Shown here piece by piece: positions 19,457 through 61,442 of a stretch of 64,000 nucleotides of DNA. A program made the translations under genes and the position numbers. Origin of the DNA: Pararhodobacter marinus (GTDB taxonomy: Bacteria; Pseudomonadota; Alphaproteobacteria; Rhodobacterales; Rhodobacteraceae); contig NZ_QEYD01000011.1 of assembly GCF_003122215.1 (NCBI RefSeq), positions 1 to 64,000 on the forward strand, given 5' to 3'. Numbering within the stretch: the stretch's first letter is position 1; every line of letters begins with the position of its first letter. The notes under the pieces are model-generated. The model ran no database searches and was not told the origin of the DNA. It saw only the letters and a list, made by a program, of their open reading frames with translations.

Positions 19457-19659
19457 TCGTCGCACTCCCTCGCTGACGCTCCCTGCGGGCCATATTGGCG
19501 ACAAGTCGGGCGCTGGGGAAGGGGCTGCGATGTGAAGGGCGCGGCGCGGGGGCGGGCTGAAATGCCTGAATTATGACGCAATTGGTCCGCGCATTTGCCA
19601 TCGCCGGAGGATTGAATGAGCGCAGGAAGCATCCCCGCTTCATCAGGGAGGGATCGGAC

Positions 19660-45063: not shown

Positions 45064-45092
45064 AAAGAGGCGCCTTCGGGCGCCTCTTTTCT
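45064..45092. terminator. rho-independent terminator between convergent genes
   Basis: AAGAGGCGCC-TTCG-GGCGCCTCTT hairpin flanked by A-run and T-run on the two sides, so it should end both the OFA transcript and the convergent regulator transcript. Confidence 0.92.
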
Positions 45093-45103
45093 TGGCCGAC
45101 GGC

Positions 45104-46825: not shown

Positions 46826-46903
46826 GCAGAATTTGATGAAGCTGAAAGATGGATTTCATCAAGACATGAAATTTCTGCGTCTGCAATGCTCTCGTGAAAA
46901 TTG

Positions 46904-46929
46904 ATTTAAAACAGAGGCTTGTTTTAAAT
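46904..46929 (+). promoter_or_regulatory. ATTTAAAACA-N6-TGTTTTAAAT inverted repeat (regulator operator)
   Basis: Two perfect 10-bp arms around GAGGCT lie between the V4R regulator gene and the aldehyde dehydrogenase gene, in AT-rich DNA. It is the best candidate binding site for that regulator. No GG-N10-GC sigma-54 promoter was found in the interval. Confidence 0.75.
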
Positions 46930-47029
46930 TTTCGCGCCGTCGCGATTATGTCTTGCGCAAATTCTTACCCGATCCCCCAACTTGCCCCGCATCCCGGTGA
47001 GGAGCCGGGCGTCTACGGGAGGACATCAT

Positions 47030-48499
47030 ATGGACGGATCAGCAGGGGCATTCCTGAGCGAAGCTTTGTGGAGCGGGCGCATCTATTCCGGCGGCTGGAC
47101 TGCGACCGAGGCCCAGTCCGAGGTGACGGCGCCCGCCGACGGCGCCTTCGTCGCGCGGGTCGGAAAGGCCAGTGCCGCCGATCTGGCGCGCGCCGCCGCC
47201 GCCGCCGCGCAGGCGCAGCCCGGCTGGGCCGCCACGCCGCCCCAGCAGCGCGCGAAGATCCTGAGCGCCGCCGCCGACATCCTGGAAGCCAACGGGCCCG
47301 AACTCATGCCGTGGATCATCCGCGAAACCGGCTCGATCCCGCCCAAGGCCGGGATCGAGATCGAGCACAGCGCGGGTTTCATTCGGGCCGCGGCCAGCGC
47401 CGCGCTGGAACCCGCGGGGCGTATCCTGCCCAGCCCGGATGGCCGCCACGAGGAAGCGCTGCGCGTGCCGCATGGGGTGGTCGGCGTGATCTCGCCCTTC
47501 AACTTCCCGCTGATCCTGTCGATCCGCGCCATCGCCGCGGCGCTCGCCACCGGCAACACCGTGGTCCACAAACCCGATCCGCGCACGCCGATCACCGGCG
47601 GTGTCATCATCGCCCGGATCTTCGAGGAAGCGGGCCTCCCCGCGAATTGCCTGCATATCGTGCCGGGCGGCGGCGATGTCGGCGCGGCGATGTGCGAGGA
47701 CCCGCATATCGCCATGGTCAGCTTCACCGGCTCGCCCGAAGTGGGCTCGAAAGTCGGCGAGGCCTGCGGGCGCAACCTCAAGCGCGTGCAGCTGGAACTG
47801 GGCGGCAAGAACGCGCTGGTGATCATGGAGGATGCCGACCCTGAGCGGGCGGCGTCCAACGCGGCCTGGGGCGCGTGGCTGCATCAGGGGCAGATCTGCA
47901 TGGCGACGGGGCTGATCCTTGCGCCCAGGGGCATGGCCGCGGATCTGGCGGACAGGCTTGCCGCCAAGGCCCAGCATCTGCCGGTCGGGGACCCGGCCCG
48001 CGGGCAGGTGGCGCTGGGGCCGTTGATCTCGGGACAGGAGGCGCGGCGCATCGAGGGGATCGTGCAGGACGCGGTCGCCAAGGGCGCGCGACTGCTGGCC
48101 GGGGGCACGGCGGAGGGCACGATGTTCCCCGCCACGGTGCTGACCGATGTGACGCCCGGGATGCGCGCTTTCGACGAGGAAATCTTCGGCCCGGTCGCGG
48201 TTATCGCCGCCTATGACGGGGATGACGACGCGGTGCGTCTGGCCAACCTGTCCGAGTTCGGCCTTGCCGCCGGGATCATCGGCACGGATCTGGGCCGCGC
48301 GCGGGCGCTTGGCGACCGGCTTAAGGTGGGTCATCTGCACATCAACGACCAGACGGTGACGGCAAGCCCCTTCGCCCCGTTCGGCGGGCGCGGGCGCTCG
48401 GGCAACGGGACGCGGATCTCGGGTCCGGCGATCTGGGAGGAATTCACCCAATGGGTCTGGGTCACGACCCTGCCCGAGGCGCGCAGCTACCCGTTCTGA
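47030..48499 (+). CDS. benzaldehyde dehydrogenase-like aldehyde dehydrogenase
   Basis: A 489-residue ALDH-fold enzyme. The NAD-binding segment is GVISPFNFPLILSIRAIAAAL, the general base Glu256 is in LELGGKN, and the catalytic Cys290 is in HQGQICMATG. The sequence ISPFNFP...PRTPITGG and the end FTQWVWVT follow XylC-type benzaldehyde dehydrogenases. It oxidises aromatic aldehydes to acids. It is the first gene of an operon with a coniferyl-alcohol dehydrogenase-like SDR. GGGAGGA precedes the ATG. Confidence 0.88.
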   Translation: MDGSAGAFLSEALWSGRIYSGGWTATEAQSEVTAPADGAFVARVGKASAADLARAAAAAAQAQPGWAATPPQQRAKILSAAADILEANGPELMPWIIRETGSIPPKAGIEIEHSAGFIRAAASAALEPAGRILPSPDGRHEEALRVPHGVVGVISPFNFPLILSIRAIAAALATGNTVVHKPDPRTPITGGVIIARIFEEAGLPANCLHIVPGGGDVGAAMCEDPHIAMVSFTGSPEVGSKVGEACGRNLKRVQLELGGKNALVIMEDADPERAASNAAWGAWLHQGQICMATGLILAPRGMAADLADRLAAKAQHLPVGDPARGQVALGPLISGQEARRIEGIVQDAVAKGARLLAGGTAEGTMFPATVLTDVTPGMRAFDEEIFGPVAVIAAYDGDDDAVRLANLSEFGLAAGIIGTDLGRARALGDRLKVGHLHINDQTVTASPFAPFGGRGRSGNGTRISGPAIWEEFTQWVWVTTLPEARSYPF

Positions 48500-48577
48500 C
48501 CCCTCATGCCTTCGGACCGGCGGCCGCCCCCTCGGCGGGGCGGGTGGCCCCGGCTGACCTGAACAAAGGACAAGACC

Positions 48578-49342
48578 ATGAATTTGCAAGGCAAGACACT
48601 CGTCGTAACCGGCGCCTCGTCCGGGATCGGCTCGGAAGTGGCGCGGCTGGCGCGGTTTCACGGCGCGCGCGTTATCGGCATGGACCGCAATGACCCGATG
48701 GTGTCGCTCGATGGTTTCGTGACGGTCGACATGGCCGATCCCGGCTCGATCCAGGCGGCCGTCAACGAATTGCCCAGCCGTATCGACGCGCTGGTCAATT
48801 GCGCGGGGGTCTCTGGGATGGCGGATCCCGACCTCGTGGCGCGGATCAACTATCTGGGGCTGCGCCACCTGACCGAAGCGCTGGTGCCGCATCTGAAGGG
48901 TGGCGCGGTGGTCAATGTCGCCTCGATCCTGGGCGTCGAATGGCCCCGGAGACTGGACGCGCACAAGGCGCTGGCCGCCACCGCCGATTTCGACTCGGGC
49001 GCAGCGTGGCTGAAGGTGAACCCGGTCCCGCCCGAAACCTGCTACCAGTATTTCAAGGAAGCGCTGATCGTCTGGACCAAGCTGCGCGGCTACGCGCTGT
49101 TCATGCAGCACGACATCCGCATGAACGCAGTCGCGCCGGGGCCGGTGATGACGCCGATCCTTGGGGAATTCGTGCAGATGCTGGGCGAGGAGCGGGTCGC
49201 CGCCGATGCCGCCAGGATCAAGCGCCCCGCCATCCCCGACGAGATCGCGCCGCCCGTCCTCTTCCTGTGTTCGGATGCCGCGCGCTGGGTGACGGGGATC
49301 AACCTGCCCGTCGATGGCGGCATCGACGCGATGTATACCTGA
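48578..49342 (+). CDS. coniferyl-alcohol dehydrogenase-like SDR
   Basis: A 254-residue SDR: TGASSGIGSE (11-20), NCAGVSG, Ser116 in VASILGVEW, and the catalytic pair Tyr156/Lys160 in CYQYFKEALIVW. The long insertion between the Ser and the Tyr, and the CYQxxKEALIVW motif, match CalA-type coniferyl alcohol dehydrogenases. With the upstream aldehyde dehydrogenase it would oxidise an aromatic alcohol to the acid. Substrate assignment is by family only. AAAGGA precedes the ATG. Confidence 0.85.
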   Translation: MNLQGKTLVVTGASSGIGSEVARLARFHGARVIGMDRNDPMVSLDGFVTVDMADPGSIQAAVNELPSRIDALVNCAGVSGMADPDLVARINYLGLRHLTEALVPHLKGGAVVNVASILGVEWPRRLDAHKALAATADFDSGAAWLKVNPVPPETCYQYFKEALIVWTKLRGYALFMQHDIRMNAVAPGPVMTPILGEFVQMLGEERVAADAARIKRPAIPDEIAPPVLFLCSDAARWVTGINLPVDGGIDAMYT

Positions 49343-49350
49343 GCCGCGCC

Positions 49351-50260
49351 ATGTCGATTGAACAGCTGGACGCCGTGCTCGAGGCCGGGGCGCAGAACCC
49401 GCCTCCGGTCACACAAGGTCCCGCCGCCCTGCGGCAATGGTTCGAGGCGATGATGGCGCCCATGCCGGTGGCCGGAACTGTCGCGGTCGAACCGGTCGAG
49501 ATCGCCGGGAACGGCTGCGAATTCCTGTGGCCCGACGGCCCGGGCGACGGAACCGGCCCGGGCACCAATACCCGGCTGATCGTCTACGTTCATGGCGGCG
49601 GCTTCGTCTTCGGCTCACCACGCTCGCACCGGGTCATCGCCAGCCATCTGGCCCGCGCCAGCGGGATTCCCGTGTTGTCGGCGCAGTACCGCATGGCGCC
49701 CGAGCATCCCTATCCTGCCGCGCCCGACGATCTCATGGCGATCTGGCGCTGGGTGCTGGAGAGGGGCCACGCGCCGGGCACCGTCGCGCTGGCGGGGGAT
49801 TCAGCGGGTGGCACCCTGGCGCTGGGCACGGCTTGTCGGGCGCGCGATGCGGGCTTGCCGCTGCCCGCCGCGCTGGCGCTGTTGTCCCCGGCGCTGGACT
49901 TCGCCCATGACAGCGCATCGCATGTCGAGATGGCGGGAGGCGCCGCTGGTCAACCGGCCCTTCGCCGAGATGTTCACTGCGGCGTATCTCGGCGCGCGCG
50001 ACCGTCGCGACGCTGGGGTGACGCCGCTTTGCGGCGATCTGTCCGGTCTGCCGCCGATGCAGGTGCAGGTCGGCAGCCGGGAGTTCCTGCGCGACGACAG
50101 CGTGACGCTGGTCGAGCGCGTCGTGGCCGCGGGCGGCCGTGCCGAGATGATCCTCTGGGACGGCATGTGCCACAACCACCAGCTTTTCGCGCCCGTCCTG
50201 GAGGAGGGGATGGACTCGATCGAACGCGCCGCAGCGTTCCTGCGCGCCCATCTGGCGTGA
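49351..50260 (+). pseudogene. esterase/lipase (HSL-type alpha/beta-hydrolase) with a frameshift
   Basis: The first 195 codons read HSL-type esterase: the oxyanion motif YVHGGGFVFGS and the nucleophile motif AGDSAGGT. After HDSASHVEMAG the frame is lost; the continuation lies one base later (EAPLVNRPFAEMFTAAYLGA, then QVGSREFLRDDS with the catalytic Asp and the His in DGMCHNHQLF). Removing one G from the GGG at 49935-49937 restores a single 302-residue protein. A real mutation or a sequencing error is possible. It is otherwise complete and 8 bp after the SDR gene. Confidence 0.85.
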
Positions 50261-50275
50261 GGACCTGACACAGCC

Positions 50276-50297
50276 GCGCGGCCGCCGCAGGCCGCGC
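50276..50297 (+). other. intercistronic hairpin before the ABC substrate-binding gene
   Basis: GCGCGGCC and GGCCGCGC form an 8-bp stem with a 6-base loop between the esterase stop and the binding-protein ribosome site. Such hairpins often stabilise the downstream message. Confidence 0.5.
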
Positions 50298-50319
50298 AGA
50301 CAACAAGGGAGGAGCAAAC

Positions 50320-51621
50320 ATGAAAACCCACCAACCCGGCGCCCTGACGCGCCGGCATTTCACCGCACTGGGCGGGGCGGCGCTGGTCGTGCCGGCGATG
50401 GCCCGGCGCCTGCGCGCGCAGGATGCCGACACGATCCGCATCGGCTTTGTCGGGCCGCGATCGGGGCCTCTGGGCATATTCGGCGCAGGCGACGCCTTTC
50501 TGGTCGAGCATTTCAACCGCGCGCAGGCGGACGGGATCGAGATCGGCGGGCGCCGCTACGGGGTCGAGATCGTGCTGGTCGATACCCAGTCCGACCCGGT
50601 GCGCGGCAGCCTTGTGACGCGCGACCTGATCACCGGGCAGGCGCCCGACATCGTCATCACCGCCTCGACGCCCGAAACCGTCAACCCGGTCGCCGATGCC
50701 TGCGAGGCGGCGGGGATGCCCTGCCTGTCGACCACCGCGCCCTGGGAGAGCTTCTATTTCGGGCGGGGCGGGCGTCCCGGACAACCTTCGCCCTTCCGCT
50801 GGACCTATCACTTCTGTTTCGGGACCGGGAATTTCGTCACCCTCTATGATGACCAGTGGCGTCAGGTCGACACCAACCGCAAGGTCGGCATTCTGGCCCC
50901 GAACGATGCCGACGGGAACGCGATCCGCGCGGGGCTTCTGCCCGCGCTGTCGGCGGCGGGCTGGGACATTCTGGACCCCGGCCCCTACGAGAACATGTCG
51001 AGCGATTTCTCGCGGCATATCGAAGCCTTCAGATCCGCCGGGGTCGAGATCGTCAACGCCTTCCCTTTCCCGCCCGATTTCCCCGTCTTCTGGCGTCAGG
51101 CCGCGCAGCAGGGGCTGGCCCAGCAGGTCAAGGTCATGCAGATGGCCAAGGCCGGGCTGTTCGCCGCCGAACTCGATGCGATGGGCAGTCTGGGCTACGG
51201 GCTGCATGCCGGCGCCTACTGGCACCCGGTCTTCCCCTTCGCCTCGACCGCCGTGGGGCTGAGCAGCGCCGGAATCGCCCAGGGCTACGAGGCCGCCACG
51301 GGGCAGCAATGGAACCAGCAGGTCGGCGCGACGGCCAGCCTGCTCGACGCCACGCTGGCCGCGCTGCGTGCGTCGGGGGCGCCCAAGGACAAGGCCGCGC
51401 TCGCCTCGGCGCTGTCGGGCCTGCAATGCGACACGGCGGTCGGACCCGTCGATTTCGCCAATGGCCCGGTGCCCAATTGCGCCGAAACGCATCTGGTGGG
51501 CGTGCAGTGGAACCGCGCAACCAGCGGTCCCTGGGGGTATCAGCTCGATGTCGTGTCGAATGCCGATCACCCGTCGGTGCCGACCACGGCGGCGATGACC
51601 GCCTACCGGCTGGGGGGCTGA
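50320..51621 (+). CDS. ABC transporter substrate-binding protein (LivK-type, Tat signal)
   Basis: A 433-residue periplasmic binding protein of the leucine/amide-aromatic acid type. The N-terminus has a twin-arginine pattern TRRHFTALGGAALVV, then mature DTIRIGFVGPRSGPLGIFG. It binds the ligand for the four downstream ABC genes. Since it follows aromatic alcohol/aldehyde dehydrogenase and esterase genes, an aromatic carboxylate is likelier than a branched-chain amino acid. GGGAGGAG precedes the ATG. Confidence 0.92.
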   Translation: MKTHQPGALTRRHFTALGGAALVVPAMARRLRAQDADTIRIGFVGPRSGPLGIFGAGDAFLVEHFNRAQADGIEIGGRRYGVEIVLVDTQSDPVRGSLVTRDLITGQAPDIVITASTPETVNPVADACEAAGMPCLSTTAPWESFYFGRGGRPGQPSPFRWTYHFCFGTGNFVTLYDDQWRQVDTNRKVGILAPNDADGNAIRAGLLPALSAAGWDILDPGPYENMSSDFSRHIEAFRSAGVEIVNAFPFPPDFPVFWRQAAQQGLAQQVKVMQMAKAGLFAAELDAMGSLGYGLHAGAYWHPVFPFASTAVGLSSAGIAQGYEAATGQQWNQQVGATASLLDATLAALRASGAPKDKAALASALSGLQCDTAVGPVDFANGPVPNCAETHLVGVQWNRATSGPWGYQLDVVSNADHPSVPTTAAMTAYRLGG

Positions 51622-51627
51622 GATCCG

Positions 51628-52353
51628 ATGCAGGCACTCCTTTCGGGGCAGGGGCTGGTCAAGTCCTTCGGTCGCCTGCGCGCGGTGGACGGCGTCGATA
51701 TCGCCGTCCATCCGGGCGAGGCGCTGGGCATCGTCGGCCCCAACGGCGCGGGCAAGACCACGCTGTTCGGTGCGCTGGCCGGGGCCTTTCCGCTCAGCGC
51801 CGGCACGATCCGCCTGGACGGCGCCGCGATCACCGCGTTGCCCGCCGCGCGCCGCTGCGCGCTGGGCATCGCCCGCACGCACCAGATCCCGCGCCCGTTT
51901 CTGGGCCTGAGCGTGTTTGAAAACGTGCAGGTCGCCGCGCGCGCGGGCGGGGCGCTGGATGCCGACGCCTCGGTCGGGACTGCCGCGGGGATCCTGTCCC
52001 GCACCGGCCTGCACGATCTGGCCAACCGCCCCGCCGGGGCGCTGGGGCTTCTGGACCGCAAGCGGCTGGAACTGGCGCGCGCGCTGGCGACGCAGCCGCG
52101 CGTGCTGCTGCTCGACGAGATCGGCGGCGGCCTGACAGAGGCCGAGCTGGAACAGCTGGTCGCGCTGATCCTCGGGCTGAAAGCGCAGGGTCTGACCATC
52201 GTCTGGATCGAGCATATCCTGCACGCGCTTCTTCAGGTGATTGACCGGCTGGTCTGCATGGCGCAGGGCCGCGTTCTGGCCGAGGGCGCCCCCCAGACCG
52301 TGATGGCCGACGCGCAGGTGCGCGCCGCCTATCTGGGGAGCGACCCGGAATGA
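51628..52353 (+). CDS. ABC transporter ATP-binding protein (LivG-type)
   Basis: A 241-residue ATPase: Walker A GPNGAGKTT, a somewhat degenerate signature motif region at LGLLDRKRLELARALA, and Walker B LLLDEIGGGL with LivG-like ERAL-type helices. The usual LSGG is not obvious (GALGLLDRKR), as is common in LivG where it reads LxYGxQRRLEIARAL. It begins 6 bp after the binding-protein gene and overlaps the LivF gene by 4 bp. Confidence 0.92.
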   Translation: MQALLSGQGLVKSFGRLRAVDGVDIAVHPGEALGIVGPNGAGKTTLFGALAGAFPLSAGTIRLDGAAITALPAARRCALGIARTHQIPRPFLGLSVFENVQVAARAGGALDADASVGTAAGILSRTGLHDLANRPAGALGLLDRKRLELARALATQPRVLLLDEIGGGLTEAELEQLVALILGLKAQGLTIVWIEHILHALLQVIDRLVCMAQGRVLAEGAPQTVMADAQVRAAYLGSDPE

Positions 52354-53075
52354 CGCTGCTATCCGTCGAAACCCTGACCGCCCGGCACGGCTTGCTGACC
52401 GCGCTGCGCGACGTGTCGCTGAGCGTCGAGGCAGGCGAAGTCCTGTGCCTTATCGGCGCCAACGGCGCGGGCAAGTCGACGCTTCTGCGCTGTATCGCCG
52501 GGGCCCATCACGCTGCCACCGGGACGGTGCGGCTGCACGGACGGGACATGACCGCGCTGAGCGCCTTTGCCCGCGTGCGGACCGGGATCGCGCTGGCGCC
52601 CGAAGGGCGGCGCCTGTTCCCGGACATGACCCTGCGCGAGAACCTGATGCTGGCCGCCGAGAACGGGCGGCGCGGCGACTGGACCCTGACGCGCGTCCTC
52701 GACGCTTTCGACGCGCTGAAGCCGCTGCTCGACCAGCCTGCCGGGGGCTTTTCCGGCGGTCAGCGTCAGGCCGCTGCCATCGGCCGCGCGCTGATGGCCA
52801 ATCCCGACCTCCTGCTTCTGGACGAGGTTTCGCTGGGCCTGTCGCCCGCCGCGGTCGAGGGGGTCTATGCCTCGCTTGCGCAGGTGCGGGGCGGGGGGAA
52901 GATGGGGATGATCGTGGTCGAACAGGACCTGACCCGCGCGCTGTCTTTCGCCGACCGGGTGATTTGCCTGTCCGAGGGCGAGGCCGTGCTCGAGGGCCGG
53001 CCCGCCGACCTGACCCGCGCGGCGATCACCCGCGCCTATTTCGGATTGTCGCAGGGTGAGGTGACGCATGTCTGA
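52350..53075 (+). CDS. ABC transporter ATP-binding protein (LivF-type)
   Basis: A 241-residue ATPase: Walker A GANGAGKST, signature FSGGQRQAAAIGRALM, Walker B LLLLDEVSLGL, and the switch VVEQD in place of H-loop spacing typical of LivF. The GRRLFPDMTLRENL segment is characteristic. ATGA overlap with the LivG gene; overlaps the permease gene by 8 bp. Confidence 0.93.
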   Translation: MTLLSVETLTARHGLLTALRDVSLSVEAGEVLCLIGANGAGKSTLLRCIAGAHHAATGTVRLHGRDMTALSAFARVRTGIALAPEGRRLFPDMTLRENLMLAAENGRRGDWTLTRVLDAFDALKPLLDQPAGGFSGGQRQAAAIGRALMANPDLLLLDEVSLGLSPAAVEGVYASLAQVRGGGKMGMIVVEQDLTRALSFADRVICLSEGEAVLEGRPADLTRAAITRAYFGLSQGEVTHV

Positions 53076-53988
53076 GAGCCTGCTCAACGCGCTGGTGCAG
53101 GGGGTCCTGCTGGGCGGCTATTACGCGATCGTCGCGGCCGGGCTGTCGCTGATGTTCGGCGTCGTGCGGTTCATCAACCTCGCGCATGGCGATCTTCTGG
53201 TGCTGGGCGCGATGCTGGCGCTTATCGCGGTCGAGGCTCTGGGCTGGCCCGTCTGGCTGGCCGTTGCCACGGTGATTCCGCTGATGGCCGCGCTGGGCTG
53301 GGCCCTGCAGCGCCTGATGTTCGAACGCGCGCTCGCGGCCGGGCCGCTTCTGCCGATCCTTGTCACGCTGGGGTTGGGCGCGACGTTGCAAAACGGGATG
53401 TTCGGGCTTTTCGGCTCGAATACCCGCTCGCTCGGCGCGCATATCGGCGATCTGTCTTGGTCGGGCTGGAGCCTGCCGGGCGGGCTCAGGGTGGGGACGC
53501 TGCCGGTCCTGACCTTCACCCTGGCCATCGCGGTGCTGGGACTGATGCACCTGATGCTGCGCCGCACGCCGCTGGGCCGCGCGATCCGCGCCACGGCACA
53601 GGATCCGGGGGCGGCGGAGCTTTCGGGCGTCGATGCCCGCCGCGTTCACCGTGCCGCCGCCGCCATCGCCTTCGCGCTGGCCGCGCTGGGTGGCGTGCTG
53701 CTGGCCATGCGCGCGCAGGTAACGCCCTTTGCCGGGCCGCCGCAGCTGATCTTCGCCTTCGAGGCGGTGGTCATCGGCGGGATCGGCAGCCTGTGGGGCA
53801 CGCTGATCGGCGGCATCGTGCTGGGACTGGCGCAAACGCTGGGCGGCACGATCTCGGCGCAGGTCTCGCTTCTGGCGGGGCATCTGGTGCTGCTCGCGGT
53901 GCTGGGCTGGCGCGTCCTGCGCGACGAGGCGGCGGCGCGCGGCGGCTGGATAGCGCTGATGCGCGTGAAAGGACCTTCCCATGACTGA
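53068..53988 (+). CDS. ABC transporter permease (LivH-type)
   Basis: A 306-residue permease with about eight membrane helices. The start NALVQGVLLGGYYAIVAAGL and the EAA-like loop IGGIGSLWGTLIGGIVLG match LivH. It overlaps the LivF gene by 8 bp and the LivM gene by 8 bp. It forms the channel together with the next gene product. Confidence 0.92.
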   Translation: MSESLLNALVQGVLLGGYYAIVAAGLSLMFGVVRFINLAHGDLLVLGAMLALIAVEALGWPVWLAVATVIPLMAALGWALQRLMFERALAAGPLLPILVTLGLGATLQNGMFGLFGSNTRSLGAHIGDLSWSGWSLPGGLRVGTLPVLTFTLAIAVLGLMHLMLRRTPLGRAIRATAQDPGAAELSGVDARRVHRAAAAIAFALAALGGVLLAMRAQVTPFAGPPQLIFAFEAVVIGGIGSLWGTLIGGIVLGLAQTLGGTISAQVSLLAGHLVLLAVLGWRVLRDEAAARGGWIALMRVKGPSHD

Positions 53989-54973
53989 GCCCCATCTTCT
54001 TCCGATGCCGAAAGGCGACCGCCGCCTGATCCTGTCTGCCGGGGCGTTGCTGATCCTGCTGGCGCTTCTGCCGCTGGTCGCCCCCGCGCAGGCCATCGAC
54101 AAGCTGACGCAACTGGGCATCTACGTCCTGCTCGCGGTGATGTGGAACCTGCTGGCAGGCTATGCCGGGCTGGTCTCGGTCGGGCAGCAGGCCTTCGTGG
54201 GGCTTGGCGGCTATGCCATGGTGCGGCTGGTCGAGGCGGGGCTGGGCCCTTTTCCCGCGCTGGTTCTGGCGCCTTTCCTGGTGGCGCTGGTGGCCTGGCC
54301 GCTTGCGTGGTTCGTGCTGCGCCTCCGGCTGGGAGAATTCGCGATCGCGATGTGGGTCATCGCCGAGGTGTTTCGCGGGCTGGTCATGTTCGACCCCCTG
54401 GTGCAGGGCGAGACCGGCACCTCGGTTCTGGCGCTCAATGCCATCGACGCCGACACGCGGCGGCTGGCGATCTACCTTCTGTCTCTGGTCGCGGCCTCGG
54501 CCGCGCTGGCGGGCAGCTTCGTGCTTTTGCGCGGGCGGCTGGGCGCCGAGGCGCAGGCGATCCGCGACGATGAAGAGGCGGCGGCCTCGGTCGGGGTCAG
54601 CACCTTCCGCGTGAAACGGCTGATCTTCGTCGCCGCGGCGGCAGGCTGCGCGCTGGCGGGAACCCTTTGGCTGGCCAGCGCCATCACCTTCCAGCCACGA
54701 ACGGGCTTCGGCATCCAATGGACCGTGTTCATGCTGTTCATGGTGCTGACCGGCGGTCTGGGGACGTTTCTGGGACCGGTCGTCGGCGCGGTCCTGCTGA
54801 TGGGCCTGCAGGAAGCGTTCGGCGATTTCGGCGCCTGGTACCTGTTCGGCGTGGGGGCGCTGTCGGTGGCTTTCGCGCTGGCGCTGCCCGGCGGGCTGGT
54901 GGGGTTGTGGTCGGCGCGCCGGGGCCGCGAGCCTTTGTCGATGCGGCGGCGTCTGAGCGCGGGCGAGGGGTGA
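53981..54973 (+). CDS. ABC transporter permease (LivM-type)
   Basis: A 330-residue permease with 8-10 helices. NLLAGYAGLVSVGQQAFVGLG is the LivM signature; the loop GLGTFLGPVVGAVLLMGLQE is the ATPase-contact motif. It completes the LivKGFHM-type importer (50320-54973). A long hairpin (54992-55031) follows, separating it from the PLP enzyme gene. Confidence 0.92.
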   Translation: MTEPHLLPMPKGDRRLILSAGALLILLALLPLVAPAQAIDKLTQLGIYVLLAVMWNLLAGYAGLVSVGQQAFVGLGGYAMVRLVEAGLGPFPALVLAPFLVALVAWPLAWFVLRLRLGEFAIAMWVIAEVFRGLVMFDPLVQGETGTSVLALNAIDADTRRLAIYLLSLVAASAALAGSFVLLRGRLGAEAQAIRDDEEAAASVGVSTFRVKRLIFVAAAAGCALAGTLWLASAITFQPRTGFGIQWTVFMLFMVLTGGLGTFLGPVVGAVLLMGLQEAFGDFGAWYLFGVGALSVAFALALPGGLVGLWSARRGREPLSMRRRLSAGEG

Positions 54974-54991
54974 CAGGCCGGAACGCGGCGC

Positions 54992-55031
54992 AGACAGGAA
55001 CCGCAATCATCGCGTTGCGGCTTCCCTGTCT
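54992..55031 (+). terminator. strong hairpin after the ABC operon
   Basis: AGACAGGAACCGCAA pairs with TTGCGGCTTCCCTGTCT with two single-base bulges, giving about 15 bp around an 8-base loop. There is no U-run, so it may stop, or only attenuate, transcription into the PLP-enzyme gene. Confidence 0.5.
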
Positions 55032-55085
55032 GTGACGCATTCTGTCCGCTGCCATGCCAGCCCCACGCACGACAGGACATTTCGC

Positions 55086-56357
55086 ATGAATACAGGCACC
55101 ATAACGGGCAATTCGGATCTGATCGCCGCCATCCGCGACCGCTTCGCCAATGTCGACACCTGCCCCTTCCAGGGCGAGCGCATCTTTTTCGAGAATGCCG
55201 GCGGCGCGCTGACACTGAAATCGGTGGTCGAAACCTCGGCCTTCTTCGCGGGCATTCCCGACAATCAGGGCCGCGACAACGTCGCCGCCCATGCGCTGGT
55301 GGACAAGATCAACGCGGCCAAGGCCGATATGGCGCTGCTGATGAATGCTAAATCGGGGCAGTTCTTCATGGGCGAAAGCGGCACCGAATTGCTGTTCCGC
55401 CTGATCCGCACCGCCTGCGTGAACGCACCGAAAGGCGCCAAGCTTGTCGGGTCGTCGATCGAGCATCCCGCCTCGCGCAGCGCCGCGCGCCGCTGGGCCG
55501 AAATCGCCGGGCTGGATTATGTGAACGTGCCCCATAACGACGAAACCGGAACGGTGACGGCGGCCGATTACGCCGCGCTGATGACGCCCGACGTGGCGGT
55601 CGCGACGATCCTGCATGCCTCGCCCGTGACCGGAATGGGAATGGATGTGGCGGCGATTTCGAAGGCGATCCGCGCCGTGGCGCCCGATTGCGTGATCATC
55701 GTCGACGGGATCCAGCACGCGGCGCACGGCCAGATCGACCTCGCCGCGTATGACGTCGATGGTTACGTCATCTCGCCCTACAAGATGTTCTCGCGCCATG
55801 GTTACGGCATGGCCTGGATCTCGGACCGGCTGAGCGCGATGCCGCATGACATGCTGATCAATGCCCCGGCGACGGGCTGGGAATTCGGGACGCGCGATAC
55901 CGGCGCCTATGCCACGCTGTCGGATGTCGTCGCCTATTTCGACTGGCTGGGCGGCGAGGTCTCGGACGAAACCGATCCCCGCGCCCGGATCGAGGCCGCA
56001 GGCCGGGCGATCCACGATTACGAGACGCATCTCACCGACAGCATGATCCACGGCATCGGCAACCTGCCGGGCCTGAAGGACATGGCGCATGTGCAGATCA
56101 TCGCCGGGCAGGACAACCCGGCGCGCGAGGGGCTTGTGTCCATCGTGGTCAAGGGCATGCCCTCGCCCGACGTCGTGCGGCTACTCAACGAGCAGGGCAT
56201 TCGCACGCATACCCGCAAGGCGGATCATTACAGCGGCAACGTGCTTGATCCGCTGGGCCTGTCCGATTGCATCCGGATCTCGCTGTGTCATTACAACACC
56301 GAGCAGGAAGTGGCCCAGTTGCTGGCCGCGCTGAAAGGGCTGGGCGACGCGGGCTGA
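55086..56357 (+). CDS. class V aminotransferase-fold PLP enzyme
   Basis: A 423-residue PLP enzyme. Asp207 (IIVDGIQH) is the expected pyridine-nitrogen ligand and Lys233 (SPYKMFSRHGYG) the Schiff-base lysine; the N-terminal FFENAGGALTLKSVVE segment matches the cysteine desulfurase/CsdA-like subgroup. The catalytic Cys loop of desulfurases is not evident: the C-terminal region reads RKADHYSGNVLDPLG. Possible activities are transamination, lyase or selenocysteine-lyase-type chemistry. It is 112 bp after the ABC operon and 261 bp before the ACP gene. Confidence 0.85.
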   Translation: MNTGTITGNSDLIAAIRDRFANVDTCPFQGERIFFENAGGALTLKSVVETSAFFAGIPDNQGRDNVAAHALVDKINAAKADMALLMNAKSGQFFMGESGTELLFRLIRTACVNAPKGAKLVGSSIEHPASRSAARRWAEIAGLDYVNVPHNDETGTVTAADYAALMTPDVAVATILHASPVTGMGMDVAAISKAIRAVAPDCVIIVDGIQHAAHGQIDLAAYDVDGYVISPYKMFSRHGYGMAWISDRLSAMPHDMLINAPATGWEFGTRDTGAYATLSDVVAYFDWLGGEVSDETDPRARIEAAGRAIHDYETHLTDSMIHGIGNLPGLKDMAHVQIIAGQDNPAREGLVSIVVKGMPSPDVVRLLNEQGIRTHTRKADHYSGNVLDPLGLSDCIRISLCHYNTEQEVAQLLAALKGLGDAG

Positions 56358-56523
56358 CGCGCCCCGCAAGCGCGCGGAAGCGGTTGTGACGCGGGCCCCG
56401 GGGCCGGATCTGCCATCCTGCCCCGGTGCCCGCGTTTCGACGTCGCCTCACGCCCCGCCTTCGGGGCCGGAACACCGATTTCGCCGCAGGTCCACTAGGC
56501 GGAATGTCGGGTAAATAGAGATC

Positions 56524-56568
56524 GGAAACAACTTGGATACCAAGCAGGGCTGGTATCATGCCGTTTCC
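56524..56568 (+). promoter_or_regulatory. nested dyad upstream of the ACP gene
   Basis: Inner arms GATACCA (56536-56542) and TGGTATC (56551-56557) pair around an 8-base loop. Outer arms GGAAAC (56524-56529) and GTTTCC (56563-56568) pair outside a 6/5 interior loop. This could be a protein operator or an RNA leader structure; it ends 50 bp before the ACP start. Confidence 0.6.
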
Positions 56569-56618
56569 GGTTGTAGAGCCAACGCCCCAACCCAAGACCG
56601 ACAGAAAAGGATGCTGGG

Positions 56619-56873
56619 GTGCCGGAAAATACCGTTTCCGACCAGGCGATGCGCGCGTTCCTGCGGAGTTCCGTCGCGCGAATCGCCAAGCGGCCGGTCG
56701 AAGAGATCGACGATGAAACCCCGATCCAGGATTACGGGCTGACCTCGCTCGAGGTGGTGATCCTGAGCGGCAGTCTTGAAGACGAATTCGGACTCGAGAT
56801 CGATCCGGCGCTGGTCTTCGAGTTCCGCACGATCGATCTCGTCTGCGAAAGACTTGCCGGCGACCGGGGCTGA
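56619..56873 (+). CDS. free-standing acyl carrier protein
   Basis: This 84-residue acyl/peptidyl carrier protein starts at GTG 56619. The phosphopantetheine site is Ser43 in DYGLTSLEVV, followed by the acidic recognition helix LEDEFGLEID and FEFRTIDLVCERL (helix III). It differs from housekeeping AcpP, which has DSLD and a more acidic helix II, and looks like carrier proteins of secondary-metabolite or specialised lipid pathways. No ketosynthase, acyltransferase or adenylation gene lies nearby, so the loading enzyme is not in the window. Confidence 0.88.
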   Translation: MPENTVSDQAMRAFLRSSVARIAKRPVEEIDDETPIQDYGLTSLEVVILSGSLEDEFGLEIDPALVFEFRTIDLVCERLAGDRG

Positions 56874-56947
56874 GCGCTTGGCCTCAACGTTGGCCCCATT
56901 CTTGGCCCTTACCGCCTGGCCCGGACACATCTTGCCGAGGACGCCGC

Positions 56948-57928
56948 ATGACCAATCCGACTCCCCGCCTTGCCTCTGCTCTCAAGAAGGCCGGCTCGGA
57001 CGATCCCCGCACCCGGCTGGCCGCCTGCCGGACCTTGGTAGCCCATGGGGCGATAAACACCGCGGAACCCGTCCTGCAGGGCCTTGCCGGCGATGAGGCG
57101 CTCGCGGAGGATACGGCGGTGCTGCTCTCGGCTTGCCGCTACATCCGGCGAGTCCTGAAAGAAGCCGAGATGACCGACAACAGCGGCAATCCGGCGTTGT
57201 CCGAGGCGGCCGAACGGGACATCCTGCTGGGAGAAAGCTTCGACGATTTCTACCTGCTGAAGCGCGCGGAAGGCAGTGCCAACCTGATCATTGTCTTTAC
57301 CGGCATGGCGCACAGCTTCGGGGTGTCGCTCGCGCTGCTGCTGCGCATCCTGAAGCGCTTTGACAGTCATGTCATCTTTCTTCAGGACGCGCACAAGCAG
57401 TACTATTTCAACGGGGTCGCGGGGCTTGGCGGCACCTATGCCGGGACGCTGGACGCGCTGCGGCACCGCGCGGCCGAGATCGGGGCAAGCAACATCTGGT
57501 GTCTGGGCCAGTCGGGCGGCGGCTATGCCGCGATCCAGTTCGCAACGGATCTGCAGGCTCGCGGCGTTCTGGCCTTCGTGCCCGCCACGACCCTTCAACC
57601 CCTGCAGGAGGACGGGACGCTGCCTGCCGACGGACCGGACAACGAAACCGGGACGGCGCTGCCCGGTCCGCTGGATCTGGCCGTGCAACTGGCCCGGGCC
57701 GAGGTCGTCCCGCATATCTCGATCGTCTTCGGCGCCCTGTCAGAGCAGGATTCCACTCAGGCAAAGCGGCTCACGCATCCGGCGGTCGAGCGGATCCCCA
57801 TCGAGGGTTTTGCCGATCACGCGGTCTTCGCGAAGGTGGTGGCGGATCACCGTCTGGACGACATGATCCGGCACCTGTTCGCCAGCCAGCCCCACGATAC
57901 CCGCGCCGGAAGGCAGCCAAACCCATGA
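56948..57928 (+). CDS. alpha/beta-hydrolase-like protein next to the ACP
   Basis: 326 residues: a helical N-terminal segment (1-75), then an alpha/beta-hydrolase core from about 110. The nucleophile elbow is GQSGGG (Ser189, within IWCLGQSGGGYAAIQFA). A possible acid residue lies in ALSEQDSTQ and a His in EGFADHAVFAK. The core shares motif order and local sequence (YxFNG...LDALRH / ...VLAFVPATTLQP) with the gene at 12979. It may act as a thioesterase on the ACP-bound product, but that is inference. It overlaps the next ORF by 4 bp (ATGA). Confidence 0.7.
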   Translation: MTNPTPRLASALKKAGSDDPRTRLAACRTLVAHGAINTAEPVLQGLAGDEALAEDTAVLLSACRYIRRVLKEAEMTDNSGNPALSEAAERDILLGESFDDFYLLKRAEGSANLIIVFTGMAHSFGVSLALLLRILKRFDSHVIFLQDAHKQYYFNGVAGLGGTYAGTLDALRHRAAEIGASNIWCLGQSGGGYAAIQFATDLQARGVLAFVPATTLQPLQEDGTLPADGPDNETGTALPGPLDLAVQLARAEVVPHISIVFGALSEQDSTQAKRLTHPAVERIPIEGFADHAVFAKVVADHRLDDMIRHLFASQPHDTRAGRQPNP

Positions 57929-58140
57929 GGGCCACGCGCGAGATCCTGTCTCCTGCCGATACCCGGCAGCCCTGCCGCGCGATGGTCACGCCGGCCCGGC
58001 CAGCGCGGCCGCGGCTCGCCGGAACGATGCTCAACCGGATGCCGTTGTCGCACGCCAGGGGGCCGCTGGGCGGCATGCTCTGTCTGGAAGGGCCCTTTGC
58101 CCCGCGATGGCAGGACGACGGCGCAGAAAGGGAAGTCTGA
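57925..58140 (+). CDS. possible small protein between hydrolase and P450
   Basis: 71 codons from ATG 57925, which overlaps the hydrolase stop as ATGA; its own stop ends 3 bp before the P450 ATG. The close coupling on both sides favours a real gene, but the sequence is Arg/Pro-rich with only two Cys and no recognised domain. No family is assigned. Confidence 0.35.
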   Translation: MRATREILSPADTRQPCRAMVTPARPARPRLAGTMLNRMPLSHARGPLGGMLCLEGPFAPRWQDDGAEREV

Positions 58141-58143
58141 CGG

Positions 58144-59304
58144 ATGGGGGACAAGAGGCAACACGGCAAACCGGACGGCACAGGATCGTTCCGGGTCATC
58201 ACGGACCCGTCTGTCGCCCGCAAGGTGAGCCGGTCGATGGCGTTCAGCGTGGTGGATCTGCCGGGATATTATCGGGACATGGCCGCTCTTACCGGGCTGG
58301 AGCTGGACGCGCTGATCCGCGTGGTCGATGGCATCCCGTTCTTTTCGAGCGGCGCGCGTCACCTCTTGTTGCGGCGCGTCATCCTGCAGGTCTTCCGGGA
58401 AGACAGGATCGAGGCCTGGCAGCCGGTCATTGACGAACAGATCGACGCGGCGATTTCCCGCCTGAAGTCTGCGGAGATTGTCGACCTGGCCGGAGATTTC
58501 GCCGATCCGCTCTTCGCCGGGGTGATGACCCGCCTGTTCGGATTGCCGGAAGCGCAGGCGGGCAACCTGAATGGCTGGGCCGAAACCGTCCGCTTCGTGT
58601 CCGAGCTTCTTCTGCCGATCCGGCGTGTGCGGGAGATGAACGACGCGGCCGGCCAGTTCCTCGATGCGATGCGCGCCGGAGGAGAATCGGGAAGCCAGCG
58701 CGACGCGTCGCTCTCGGGCCTGCTTGAACGGGCCGCCGGGACGGAGTTGACGGCTGACGAGGTCGACGCCCTGATCGCCGCGCTGTTCATCGCGGGGCAG
58801 ACCACGGCGCATTCGCTGTCGAACATCCTGCTGCTGGTCTTGCGGCTGGAGCCGGGGCAACGACCCTTGCCCTCGGACCCGTTGCAGCGCCGGAACGCGG
58901 TCGAAGACCTGATCCGGCGGGGCGGGGCCCCGCAATACCTGCTGCGAATCGCCCGCGAAGGCGGGACATTGGACGGGCAGGCGTTGCAGGCCGGCGATCC
59001 CGTTCTGGTGCATATCCCCTCGGCCAACGGTTTGACGGAGGGCGCGGGCACGCCACCTGCGACGGCAAGCGGCTGTCCCTTCGGTCAGGCGCCGGATGTG
59101 CGATCGCATTTCAGCTTCGGCGCGGGCATCCATCATTGCCCGGGGGCGCCGCTCGCCCGGATGCTGATCGAGACGGCGCTGCACAAACTGCTGGCCGCGT
59201 TTCCGCGGATCGAATTGCTGGAGCCCGAACCCGAGATGTTCGGCACGGATATCATCAGAAGCCCGCGTTCGCTCAAGTGTCGCCTCGGTCCGACGGTCGG
59301 GTAA
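58144..59304 (+). CDS. short cytochrome P450 with an atypical ExxR
   Basis: A 386-residue P450. The I-helix motif is FIAGQTTA (Thr220/221), and the heme-binding loop is FSFGAGIHHCPGAPLAR with the axial Cys332. In the K-helix the segment EDLIR has Asp255 where the ExxR Glu is expected (only Arg258 is kept), which is very unusual. The N-terminus is short, and the CPFGQ segment before the heme loop is typical of bacterial soluble P450s. By position it may hydroxylate a substrate carried by the neighbouring ACP, as known for BioI-type enzymes. No ferredoxin gene is nearby. Confidence 0.85.
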   Translation: MGDKRQHGKPDGTGSFRVITDPSVARKVSRSMAFSVVDLPGYYRDMAALTGLELDALIRVVDGIPFFSSGARHLLLRRVILQVFREDRIEAWQPVIDEQIDAAISRLKSAEIVDLAGDFADPLFAGVMTRLFGLPEAQAGNLNGWAETVRFVSELLLPIRRVREMNDAAGQFLDAMRAGGESGSQRDASLSGLLERAAGTELTADEVDALIAALFIAGQTTAHSLSNILLLVLRLEPGQRPLPSDPLQRRNAVEDLIRRGGAPQYLLRIAREGGTLDGQALQAGDPVLVHIPSANGLTEGAGTPPATASGCPFGQAPDVRSHFSFGAGIHHCPGAPLARMLIETALHKLLAAFPRIELLEPEPEMFGTDIIRSPRSLKCRLGPTVG

Positions 59305-59776
59305 GGCGCTCTGCAATCGACGGAACCTGACGGCGATCGGTCCCGGAGGGGCAGGACGAAAGCGCGCGTGGCGAGGGTGCCGGGGGCGATTCGGCGGGAG
59401 GTCATTCAACCCGGGCGTTACATCTGAGCACAGTCTGCGCTTGGGTCGCTTCGACGGGCTTCGGGATGTGGGCGCTCACCTTCGTCCCCCGCGTTCTGCG
59501 CGGGCCAGGACTTGGAAACCAGGGGAGGGAGAGCGACCTTCGGTCGCCTGCCATGTCCGTAAGCCATTGAAATGACCGCGGCTGCTTGGCGGCCGGTGTC
59601 AAGTTCGTCGTAACGCCGTGACAGGATTGTGTCTCATTCGTCAGCGCCCCGTCGAGCGGATCGCCGTATGCATTTGGAATTCACGCGAATCCTGACACCA
59701 AGCGGCCACGCCGACCAAGGGTGCGCTTCCGCCCGGACAACGCGCTGCAAGTCTGAGGGGTCTCAGATATGCACTG
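59305..59776. other. 472-bp region after the P450 with no credible gene
   Basis: Both strands are open only in short low-complexity frames (for example 59402-59602 minus). The region includes a small hairpin GCGACC-TTC-GGTCGC (59528-59543) and a TCTGAG-GGGT-CTCAGA dyad (59753-59768) that could end the minus-strand gene at 59777. Confidence 0.5.
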
Positions 59777-60244
59777 TCAGGTCATAGGCTCGGTTCTCTG
59801 CCCGTCCTGCCCCTTCACCTCCGCCACCCTGAGTTCGAGCCGTTCCCTGAGCAGGGCGACTCCGCCTTTAACGAACGCCACACGGACGACCTTGGGCACT
59901 TCAGACTGCTTGGTTTGGATGAGCAGGAACGGCTGTCGGGCGTCCCTGACACTCCCGACTCTGCCAAGGGCAAGTTCCCCATGCAGCACGGCGACAATAT
60001 CGCGGTACCTGACCACTTCCCTGCCGACGCGAAGGTGATCGTCGTAGAGCGCCGCGAAGACATGCCGGGAAAAGGGGATGCACGCCAAGCCGATCAGCAC
60101 ACCAAAGCTCGCGAAGGACACACCCAGGTCATCTGTTATGCCCAGGGAAGTACCGTACAGGATGAAGCAAACCGCAGCGACGGCCAGGATCCATGGAAAA
60201 ATCGGATCGATGCGGAAGATCTCTGGGGGGCGGTTGCTCACCAT
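59777..60244 (-). CDS. small membrane protein with a PH-like C-terminal domain
   Basis: 155 residues with two membrane helices (about 15-35 and 43-60) and a beta-rich C-terminal part (LYDDHLRVGREVVRYRDIV) that resembles bacterial PH-like domains, then a hydrophilic tail. No catalytic motif is visible and no family is recognised. It is isolated in a gene-poor interval and lies convergent with the P450 gene. Confidence 0.6.
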   Translation of the reverse strand: MVSNRPPEIFRIDPIFPWILAVAAVCFILYGTSLGITDDLGVSFASFGVLIGLACIPFSRHVFAALYDDHLRVGREVVRYRDIVAVLHGELALGRVGSVRDARQPFLLIQTKQSEVPKVVRVAFVKGGVALLRERLELRVAEVKGQDGQRTEPMT

Positions 60245-60763
60245 GGGTCAAGGTCGCACAAGGCATAACAGGGCGCAACCAACCGTTCACAAAGCCGCCC
60301 CCTGTTTTCCAAGGCGCTGATCCATGTCCGCAGGCGCGCTTGTCGGCGTCGTGCCGGGCTTCGACGCGGGCGAACGCCAGGCCGACAGAATCCAGCCTGT
60401 CAACTGCGGCAAAATCAGCGGCACGCTCGATCGAGCATTCTTGCGGCGGGGACAATCCAATACGGGTCACCGCCTGTTTCGCCAGGGATGCAACGGGAGA
60501 TACGCGTTCGCGGCCAAGCATCGCAGGCAGTTCTCCATCAAGGCCAGACTCCACTGAGCGCTCAGTGAAATTATCGTTTGAGAGCGGGCAAGGGGCTGCG
60601 TTCGGTCAAGGGGTCGGGCTTCGGTGGAAGACGCACTTCTATCTGGCATCTCGCGTGCATTCGCGATAACGGCCCGGTTGAGGCCGCCCGCCTGACGGAG
60701 GCTGGGCAAGCGAAGACACGTGCATAGCGAAGTCGTTAGCGATGGGCCCTATCTGGAGTTGCC
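60245..60763. other. 519-bp region of degraded DNA between two small genes
   Basis: Overlapping short frames exist on both strands, but none has a recognisable domain. It contains a 16-bp perfect palindrome CACTGAGCGCTCAGTG (60552-60567) and ends in a fragment that resembles a transposase tail (60740-60856), so it is probably the scar of a mobile element. Confidence 0.45.
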
Positions 60764-60856
60764 ATGGTGGCCGCCATCCTCTTCCGTATCCATGATCGCA
60801 AGATCAACCGGCTCGTCGAGCTTCTGCCTTGGCGATGGAGCGCGGCTCGCAGGTGA
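60740..60856 (+). pseudogene. probable transposase C-terminal remnant (IS66-like)
   Basis: The frame opens after a stop at 60737 and ends at TGA 60854-60856. The last 30 residues include [21 protein letters not shown], close to the C-terminal tail of IS66 transposases (IxDHKIxRLDELLPW). There is no catalytic domain. The assignment is by eye and needs a search. It directly abuts the ynfA gene, overlapping its start by 4 bp. Confidence 0.55.
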
Positions 60857-61194
60857 CGAACGTCTTCGCCTCGATCGGCATGTATGCGCTGGCGGCTCTC
60901 GCCGAGATCGCGGGCTGCTTCGCCTTCTGGGCCTGGCTGCGTCTTGACCGTTCGGCCGTCTGGCTCATCCCGGGTGCCATCTCGCTCGCCCTGTTCGCCT
61001 ACTTGCTGACACGGGTCGAGGTCGAGTTCGCCGGTCGCGCATATGCAGCCTACGGCGGCATGTACATCGCTGCATCTATCGGCTGGCTGTGGTCCGTCGA
61101 GGGGCAGATCCCGACACGATGGGATATCATCGGAGCAGTCTTCTGTCTGACCGGCATGGCGATCATCCTGGTCGCCCCGATGCTTCAGAAGTGA
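60853..61194 (+). CDS. ynfA: YnfA-family membrane protein
   Basis: 113 residues with four membrane helices, matching YnfA (E. coli, 108 residues): [51 protein letters not shown] and [16 protein letters not shown]. YnfA belongs to the SMR-like small multidrug efflux group. The start GTG 60853 overlaps the transposase-like frame; ATG 60829 or 60835 are alternatives, with GGAG before GTG. It may have arrived with the adjacent mobile-element remnant. Confidence 0.9.
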
Positions 61195-61358
61195 CCCGCG
61201 GTCTCAATCGGGGGGTTATCATTCGCGACGATTCGTGGCTCGATGCTGCGCGCTTGTCTGCTGAAGACTGCAGGACACTGTCCCGGTAACTCACTGGTTT
61301 TCAAGGAGATCACTATTCGGGACACCATTCACCTGATTTCATTTGAAAAATGAGGTGA

Positions 61359-61442
61359 TGGTGGGCGACCCTGGAATCGAACCAGGCGTGGGTCTCCCCG
61401 GCGGAGTTACAGTCCGCTGCCGCACCTTGCAGCACGTCGCCC
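61359..61442 (-). tRNA. tRNA-Tyr (anticodon GTA)
   Basis: Read on the minus strand, GGGCGAC at the 5' end pairs with GTCGCCC at the 3' end, followed by A and an encoded CCA. The anticodon loop ACTGTAACT has GTA at its centre with a CGG/CCG stem. The T-arm TTCGATT is in place and the variable arm is long (class II, as expected for bacterial tRNA-Tyr). Length 84. Confidence 0.95.

Follow-up and report, generated by a model that had tools for sequence, protein, structure and literature searches.

A carrier protein, a serine hydrolase and a single-domain relative of carrier-linked P450-P450 fusions in Pararhodobacter marinus: a possible ketosynthase-free acyl-tailoring unit

Which process could an acyl carrier protein serve when its gene neighbors encode only a hydrolase and a cytochrome P450? 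This question is raised by a 64,000-nucleotide stretch of the Pararhodobacter marinus genome (contig NZ_QEYD01000011.1, positions 1 to 64,000; "the window" below), in which genes for a free-standing acyl carrier protein (ACP), an alpha/beta serine hydrolase and a P450 are all located on the plus strand between a class V pyridoxal phosphate (PLP) enzyme gene and a tRNA-Tyr gene. The first-pass annotation had described the three genes as adjoining, with Ser43 of the ACP in the motif GLTSLE, and as lacking any ketosynthase, acyltransferase or adenylation domain. Both descriptions were borne out: the three reading frames adjoin and are intact, and none of the missing gene types was detected by Pfam in 55086-59304 or by eye in the gene list for 44.5-61.5 kb. 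All three qualify as genes by their codon use, since the in-frame scores of the ACP (+0.35), the hydrolase (+0.34) and the P450 (+0.28) each exceeded those of all five other frames, with a training set that included the hydrolase and P450 genes themselves.

The interpretation that we prefer, to which we assign about an even chance (roughly 50%), is that ACP, P450 and hydrolase constitute a small ketosynthase-free unit for acyl tailoring, with loading likely in trans, oxidation on the carrier and subsequent release. A fatty or other carboxylic acid would be activated as acyl-AMP and loaded onto the phosphopantetheine arm of the ACP, which would beforehand have been pantetheinylated by one of the two proteins of the phosphopantetheinyl transferase family encoded in the genome. 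The P450 would oxidize the tethered chain, and the serine hydrolase would cleave the thioester, whereupon the product would be released or passed to some acceptor.

Ser43, the pantetheine attachment site of the ACP (codon 56745-56747), was invariant in all eight aligned ACPs. The nearest solved chain was that of a mycolic-acid polyketide synthase (7wrp, 8.1e-13), followed by 4hkg, 6d8i, 6c4q (Pks13), Asl1650 and 2n98, and the top NCBIfam match was the ACP end of Pks13. ACPs of the Pks13 and 2n98 types are loaded by fatty acyl-AMP ligases (FAALs), and a FAAL is the most likely identity of the missing loading enzyme. Among 60 relatives, own genome included, the three best matches of the window ACP were located directly behind three fused P450-P450 genes.

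In all seven intact loci of such fusions that were read, the fusion gene was directly followed by an ACP gene and then by a NodU-like carbamoyltransferase gene, and in six of the seven it was preceded by a FAAL-like gene. The resulting order of FAAL-like ligase, P450-P450, ACP and carbamoyltransferase was found in the window's own genome (contig C22), relative G006 (contig 4), Phaeobacter sp. G2, Rhodobacteraceae bacterium SC52, G381 and G228; in four of these six clusters (L032, L034, L061 and L118) the set is preceded by a B12 radical-SAM gene. The window departs from this order, with ACP, hydrolase and a single P450. In a second G006 cluster, on contig 13, the position of the FAAL is taken by a hydrolase-like gene, and no FAAL-like gene occurs in the 19.9 kb read, while the Phaeobacter cluster contained a hydrolase-like gene in addition to its FAAL. 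Genome G253 retained fusion fragments only, and no ACP was found between them. For comparison, none of 44 loci of other P450s (43 distinct, L017 and L115 being one place) had an ACP gene at a distance of up to about 1.5 kb; this control set consisted of 47 loci minus the fusion loci L089 and L090, both with an ACP, and the broken fusion L091.

Two side observations concern these clusters. Related hydrolase-like proteins (5.5e-173) are encoded beside two of the fused-P450 clusters (L033 8522-9556 and L060 7873-8871), and the one of L033 had no Pfam match and, by eye, a Cys at the nucleophile position (GGNCQGA). The cluster in the window's own genome (L032 8965-16339), which consists of B12 radical-SAM, FAAL-like ligase, P450-P450, ACP and carbamoyltransferase genes followed by a gene for a TPR protein, is perhaps of more interest than the window set itself.

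The P450 of the window is related to the same fusions. No close orthologue was present among the 60 relatives, and its matches there included the halves of the three fused genes at 25-31% identity, the first of which was the best match of all (2.5e-38). The window P450 joined the fusion domains with support of 100/100 in a tree of ten fusion domains and 19 other P450s, where it was placed outside both halves with 98/96. When the longest row and three motif stretches were dropped in a second tree, the joining remained at 100/100, while the position outside both halves fell to 84/60 and is less sure. The window P450 has a long end branch, which makes the order inside the clade tentative. The very divergent row L036 was excluded from the second tree as well as from the motif counts below. 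Both trees were built without the fusions of G381 and G228, rows L118 and L119 being left out, and without L001 and L002, which duplicate the genes of the window and L033; the fusions of L060 and L061, in which the cutting motif is absent, were split at mid-length. A clade profile run against 394 genomes of the family, with the best five candidates per genome scored, recovered members at 1.9e-50 or better (two in the own genome, one each in G381 and G228, and the broken G253 copy), the next P450 following at 6.8e-38. Among 385 genomes of the class the window's genome alone passed 1e-42, and 72,556 plasmid records yielded the fusion in two, those of Phaeobacter sp. G2 and SC52.

Closer inspection of the motifs revealed a shared departure from regular P450s. 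The heme loop of the window P450, FSFGAGIHHCPG, contains the heme-thiolate residue of the superfamily, Cys332 (59137-59139). In the K-helix, DLIR (residues 255-258, 58906-58917) replaces ExxR, a change on which alignments with solved P450s agree, and in the I-helix Gln replaces the acid while the Thr is kept. Both ExxR and the I-helix acid were present in 18/18 other P450s counted. The 14 domains of the seven intact fusions contained neither ExxR nor the I-helix acid nor a Thr in that column (0/14 each), the second domain of L119 being the sole one to keep the Glu of ExxR, without the Arg. The I-helix acid was thus lost in 15/15 domains of the clade (window P450 and 14 fusion domains), and the heme Cys loop was retained in 15/15.

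These losses raise the question whether the P450 oxidizes anything at all. It could instead be a non-oxidizing partner that binds the ACP as a scaffold, similar to the P450-derived activators of glycosyltransferases, and the altered or absent ExxR, the missing I-helix acid and the best NCBIfam match (TIGR04515, for the window P450 as for the own-genome fusion) all point in that direction. The scores for this model were 70.3 and 76 bits, respectively, against a cut-off of 343, and P450-derived activators have lost the heme Cys that all 15 domains keep; the window P450 moreover retains its I-helix Thr. ExxR has few exceptions among P450s, CYP157 included, and CYP157 enzymes without it are said to function, in the portions of PMC3599690 and PMC3990721 that were available. 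With this known exception the change in ExxR is not decisive against membership in the P450s, and we regard a scaffold role as quite improbable.

The release step of the proposed tailoring unit would fall to the hydrolase. It contains a GxSxG motif, and in alignments Ser189, Asp268 and His291 were the same in the window protein, four Azospirillum homologues and the homologue of G589, which suggests a catalytic triad of these residues, as would suit a thioesterase-like enzyme. No Pfam or NCBIfam family matched. The structure predicted by AlphaFold2 is of moderate confidence (pLDDT 65); its core is that of an alpha/beta hydrolase, and its top Foldseek matches were alpha/beta hydrolases, chiefly esterases, at a TM of about 0.4.

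The hydrolase family has an ACP linkage of its own that is separate from the P450. Four Azospirillum records showed an ATP-grasp-like gene (a weak Pfam match, below cut-off), an ACP gene and the hydrolase gene in this order, and in G589 and G686 a gene for a protein of 231-245 amino acids without a Pfam match preceded the ACP and hydrolase genes. With a broad ACP model, an ACP gene was detected within about 1.5 kb in seven of 36 loci of hydrolase homologues and in none of the other 29. The 36 loci represent 35 distinct ones (L039 and L070 are one place), and five of the seven positives lay outside the set from which the model was built (L068 and L069 were in it). A narrower ACP model applied around distant hydrolases gave 0/24 loci with an ACP. 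No P450 of the window clade was located near the ACP-hydrolase pairs that were viewed in wider context (L065, L066, L081 and L085). Side observations at these loci were that the proteins directly before the pairs in two class genomes (L081 8688-9380, 231 amino acids; L085 6202-6936, 245 amino acids) were alike by eye and without Pfam match. By eye, the L085 hydrolase has GSSAG together with an Asp and a stretch reading EHD.

The company of these homologues brings up a different role, in which the hydrolase would be an acyl- or aminoacyltransferase that transfers the group from the ACP to a sugar or lipid as part of a carrier-based modification of cell-surface glycans or lipids. Besides the ATP-grasp-like gene before the Azospirillum pairs, strain TSH100 has an ATP-grasp clearly of the YheC/D type and a gene annotated as a glycosyltransferase near its pair, and a Novosphingobium homologue is located among annotated capsule and sugar genes. 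A single 16-kb stretch of G017 combines a free ACP with a FAAL that has an ACP-like end, a homologue of the hydrolase fused to TPR, and a very divergent gene resembling P450s (5.6e-7); the genes around it look like glycan genes by eye. In the window itself, inspection by eye of the 44.5-61.5 kb gene list showed neither a glycosyltransferase nor a sugar gene, and the fold search points to generic esterases. We consider a transferase of this kind unlikely, though it deserves to be kept in mind.

The genome encodes one FAAL-grade ligase, in the C22 cluster, which would most likely load the ACP of the proposed tailoring unit in trans; six further matches were 27-34% identical (E 2e-20 to 2e-13), and the acyl-CoA-synthetase-type genes of the window (4024-5913 and 17837-19504) lie far from the trio. 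Relative G006, with one cluster lacking a FAAL on contig 13 and another containing one on contig 4, provides a precedent for a shared FAAL.

Several results weigh against the tailoring unit. No FAAL gene is located beside the trio, nor was a ferredoxin-like gene noticed there, and the C22 ligase is FAAL-like by its best NCBIfam matches, yet below the cut-offs of the FAAL models. The ACPs of the window and C22 are 28% identical; a single FAAL would therefore not have to accept both. The first-pass annotation had looked to a conserved linkage of ACP and P450 together with the missing loading enzyme; this exists in the sister clade, as described above, but the exact ACP-hydrolase-P450 trio had no other occurrence in the collections searched. 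Hydrolase homologues in the family sample were weak (best 2.9e-16), and of two pattern scans of a species collection for the hydrolase the first returned none and the second only two Azospirillum proteins at 30-31%. Pairs of ACP and hydrolase homologues occur without a P450, and no intact single-domain member of the P450 clade other than that of the window was found in the 394 family and 385 class genomes (best five candidates per genome; the broken G253 copy could not be typed). A single-sequence structure model of the P450 was unusable (pLDDT 37) and was not used. The unique trio, the weak relation between the two ACPs and the P450-free pairs in particular lower our certainty.

Two further members of the gene set as first described fared less well. 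The class V PLP enzyme upstream is indeed present, 261 bp from the ACP gene, and was rejected as a member of the set. Its closest orthologues, 91-92% identical, occur in G009 and G016, and of 16 window genes (47 to 63.5 kb) the PLP gene alone had a match in the 19 kb read around each of them; the PLP gene thus shows no sign of a link to the trio. The genes around the orthologues look catabolic by eye. A scan of the PLP-ACP intergenic region was uninformative (no promoter-like site; two terminator-like sites compared to 4.0 in shuffles). The second case is the 71-codon open reading frame (ORF) described as coupled to the hydrolase gene. Its start does overlap the hydrolase stop as ATGA, and it scores best among its own six frames. 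However, its codon score of -0.03 was below all 155 equal-length stretches of training genes (minimum 0.081), and no Pfam or NCBIfam family matched; it is probably either no gene or a fast-changing one.

The trio is part of a stretch of 16.3 kb that differs between strains (Table 1). DNA colinear with G006 at 89-91% identity ends at 61358, within one base of the 3' end of the tRNA-Tyr gene, and picks up again at 45091. Over the first 98.8 kb of the contig the tRNA-Tyr 3' end had no second copy longer than 14 bases, so that island status rests on the comparison with G006. This relative carries other genes at the tRNA-Tyr site, and by eye the ORF starting at the tRNA end (L140 1506-3275) is integrase-like. 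The genes at 47027-54973 encode an aldehyde dehydrogenase, a short-chain dehydrogenase/reductase (SDR) of the coniferyl-alcohol dehydrogenase type (NF009092, above cut-off) and a LIV-type ABC transporter, and are perhaps an operon for uptake and breakdown of aromatic compounds. Between the SDR and transporter genes an alpha/beta-hydrolase-like gene (49343-50268, plus strand) looks broken, its halves being in different frames by eye. A variable stretch at a tRNA gene with such a broken gene inside, and a trio without orthologues or a loading enzyme nearby, would be in keeping with three orphan genes left over in an island without a working pathway. Three intact frames with normal codon use and the expected catalytic residues count against this explanation, which we judge improbable to much the same degree as the scaffold role, if anything a shade more so.

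Table 1. Features in and around the ACP-hydrolase-P450 locus of the window
Feature	Coordinates	Strand	Basis
Strain-variable stretch of 16.3 kb beside tRNA-Tyr, containing the trio	45092..61357		DNA comparison with relative G006
Class V PLP gene	55086-56357		Pfam Aminotran_5, 5e-35
Free-standing acyl carrier protein, 84 aa, GTG start	56619..56873	+	PP-binding 6.6e-16; homologues directly behind fused P450 genes
Alpha/beta serine hydrolase with N-terminal helical region, 326 aa	56948..57928	+	Triad alignment; AlphaFold2/Foldseek
71-codon ORF between hydrolase and P450	57925..58140	+	ATGA overlap; weak codon score; no family match
Cytochrome P450, 386 aa, single-domain relative of ACP-linked P450-P450 fusions	58144..59304	+	Trees, motif alignments, Pfam p450 3.4e-11
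tRNA-Tyr	61359-61442

A broader scenario, which we put forward tentatively and at somewhat less than even odds, is that the window P450 and the fusions represent a P450 branch dedicated to ACPs, which lost ExxR and the I-helix acid and was elsewhere doubled to P450-P450. This branch would serve a FAAL pathway that has no ketosynthase but includes a carbamoyltransferase and frequently a B12 radical-SAM enzyme, and that yields oxidized, carbamoylated fatty acyl metabolites in rhodobacterial species. The P450 of the window, the only intact single-domain and less altered member found, would have a hydrolase for release as its partner and may reflect the state before doubling. ExxR is regarded as almost universal among P450s. 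If the scenario is true, an ACP-tied clade with heme Cys and no ExxR in either fusion half would allow a direct test of the need for this motif, for which the single-domain protein of the window is a simple starting point, and the clade would draw attention to a FAAL-P450-carbamoyltransferase pathway yet to be read.

Among the matches listed, the titles and abstract starts of the literature searched, a search without subscription papers and preprints, contained no report of this gene set. None of the words P450, carbamoyl, Roseobacter and Rhodobacter turned up in a word search of the available text of the 2025 FAAL review (PMC11837247). Unlike the systems in which P450s act on aminoacyl groups bound to carriers of nonribosomal peptide synthetases (NRPSs), the locus has no adenylation domain (Pfam in the segment, by eye in 44.5-61.5 kb). 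The TIGR04515 activators share with the window P450 and the own-genome fusion that theirs is the best NCBIfam model for both, but the two proteins score far below its cut-off and keep the heme Cys. CYP157 likewise has no regular ExxR (PMC3599690 and PMC3990721, available text); it keeps the Glu and changes the Arg (EVLW, EQILW), whereas the window P450 keeps the Arg and has Asp in place of Glu, and the fusion domains never have both residues. BioI (CYP107H1), which can act on fatty acyl-ACP according to the accessible part of PMC11089781, was among the solved matches of the window P450 (3ejb, 5.4e-19; phmmer 71.9 bits over about 300 residues), although it was not the nearest, since EryF, PikC and others scored higher. 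Members of one CYP family share over 40% identity according to the available text of PMC3599690. The FAAL-ACP pathways of lipopeptides, polyynes and Pks13 resemble the window set in that its ACP is of the Pks13 sort, and the sister clusters in that they pair FAAL-like and ACP genes. They differ in their polyketide synthase, NRPS or desaturase genes, none of which was noticed in the window set or the sister clusters; here a P450 or P450-P450 is found instead, accompanied in the sister clusters by a carbamoyltransferase.

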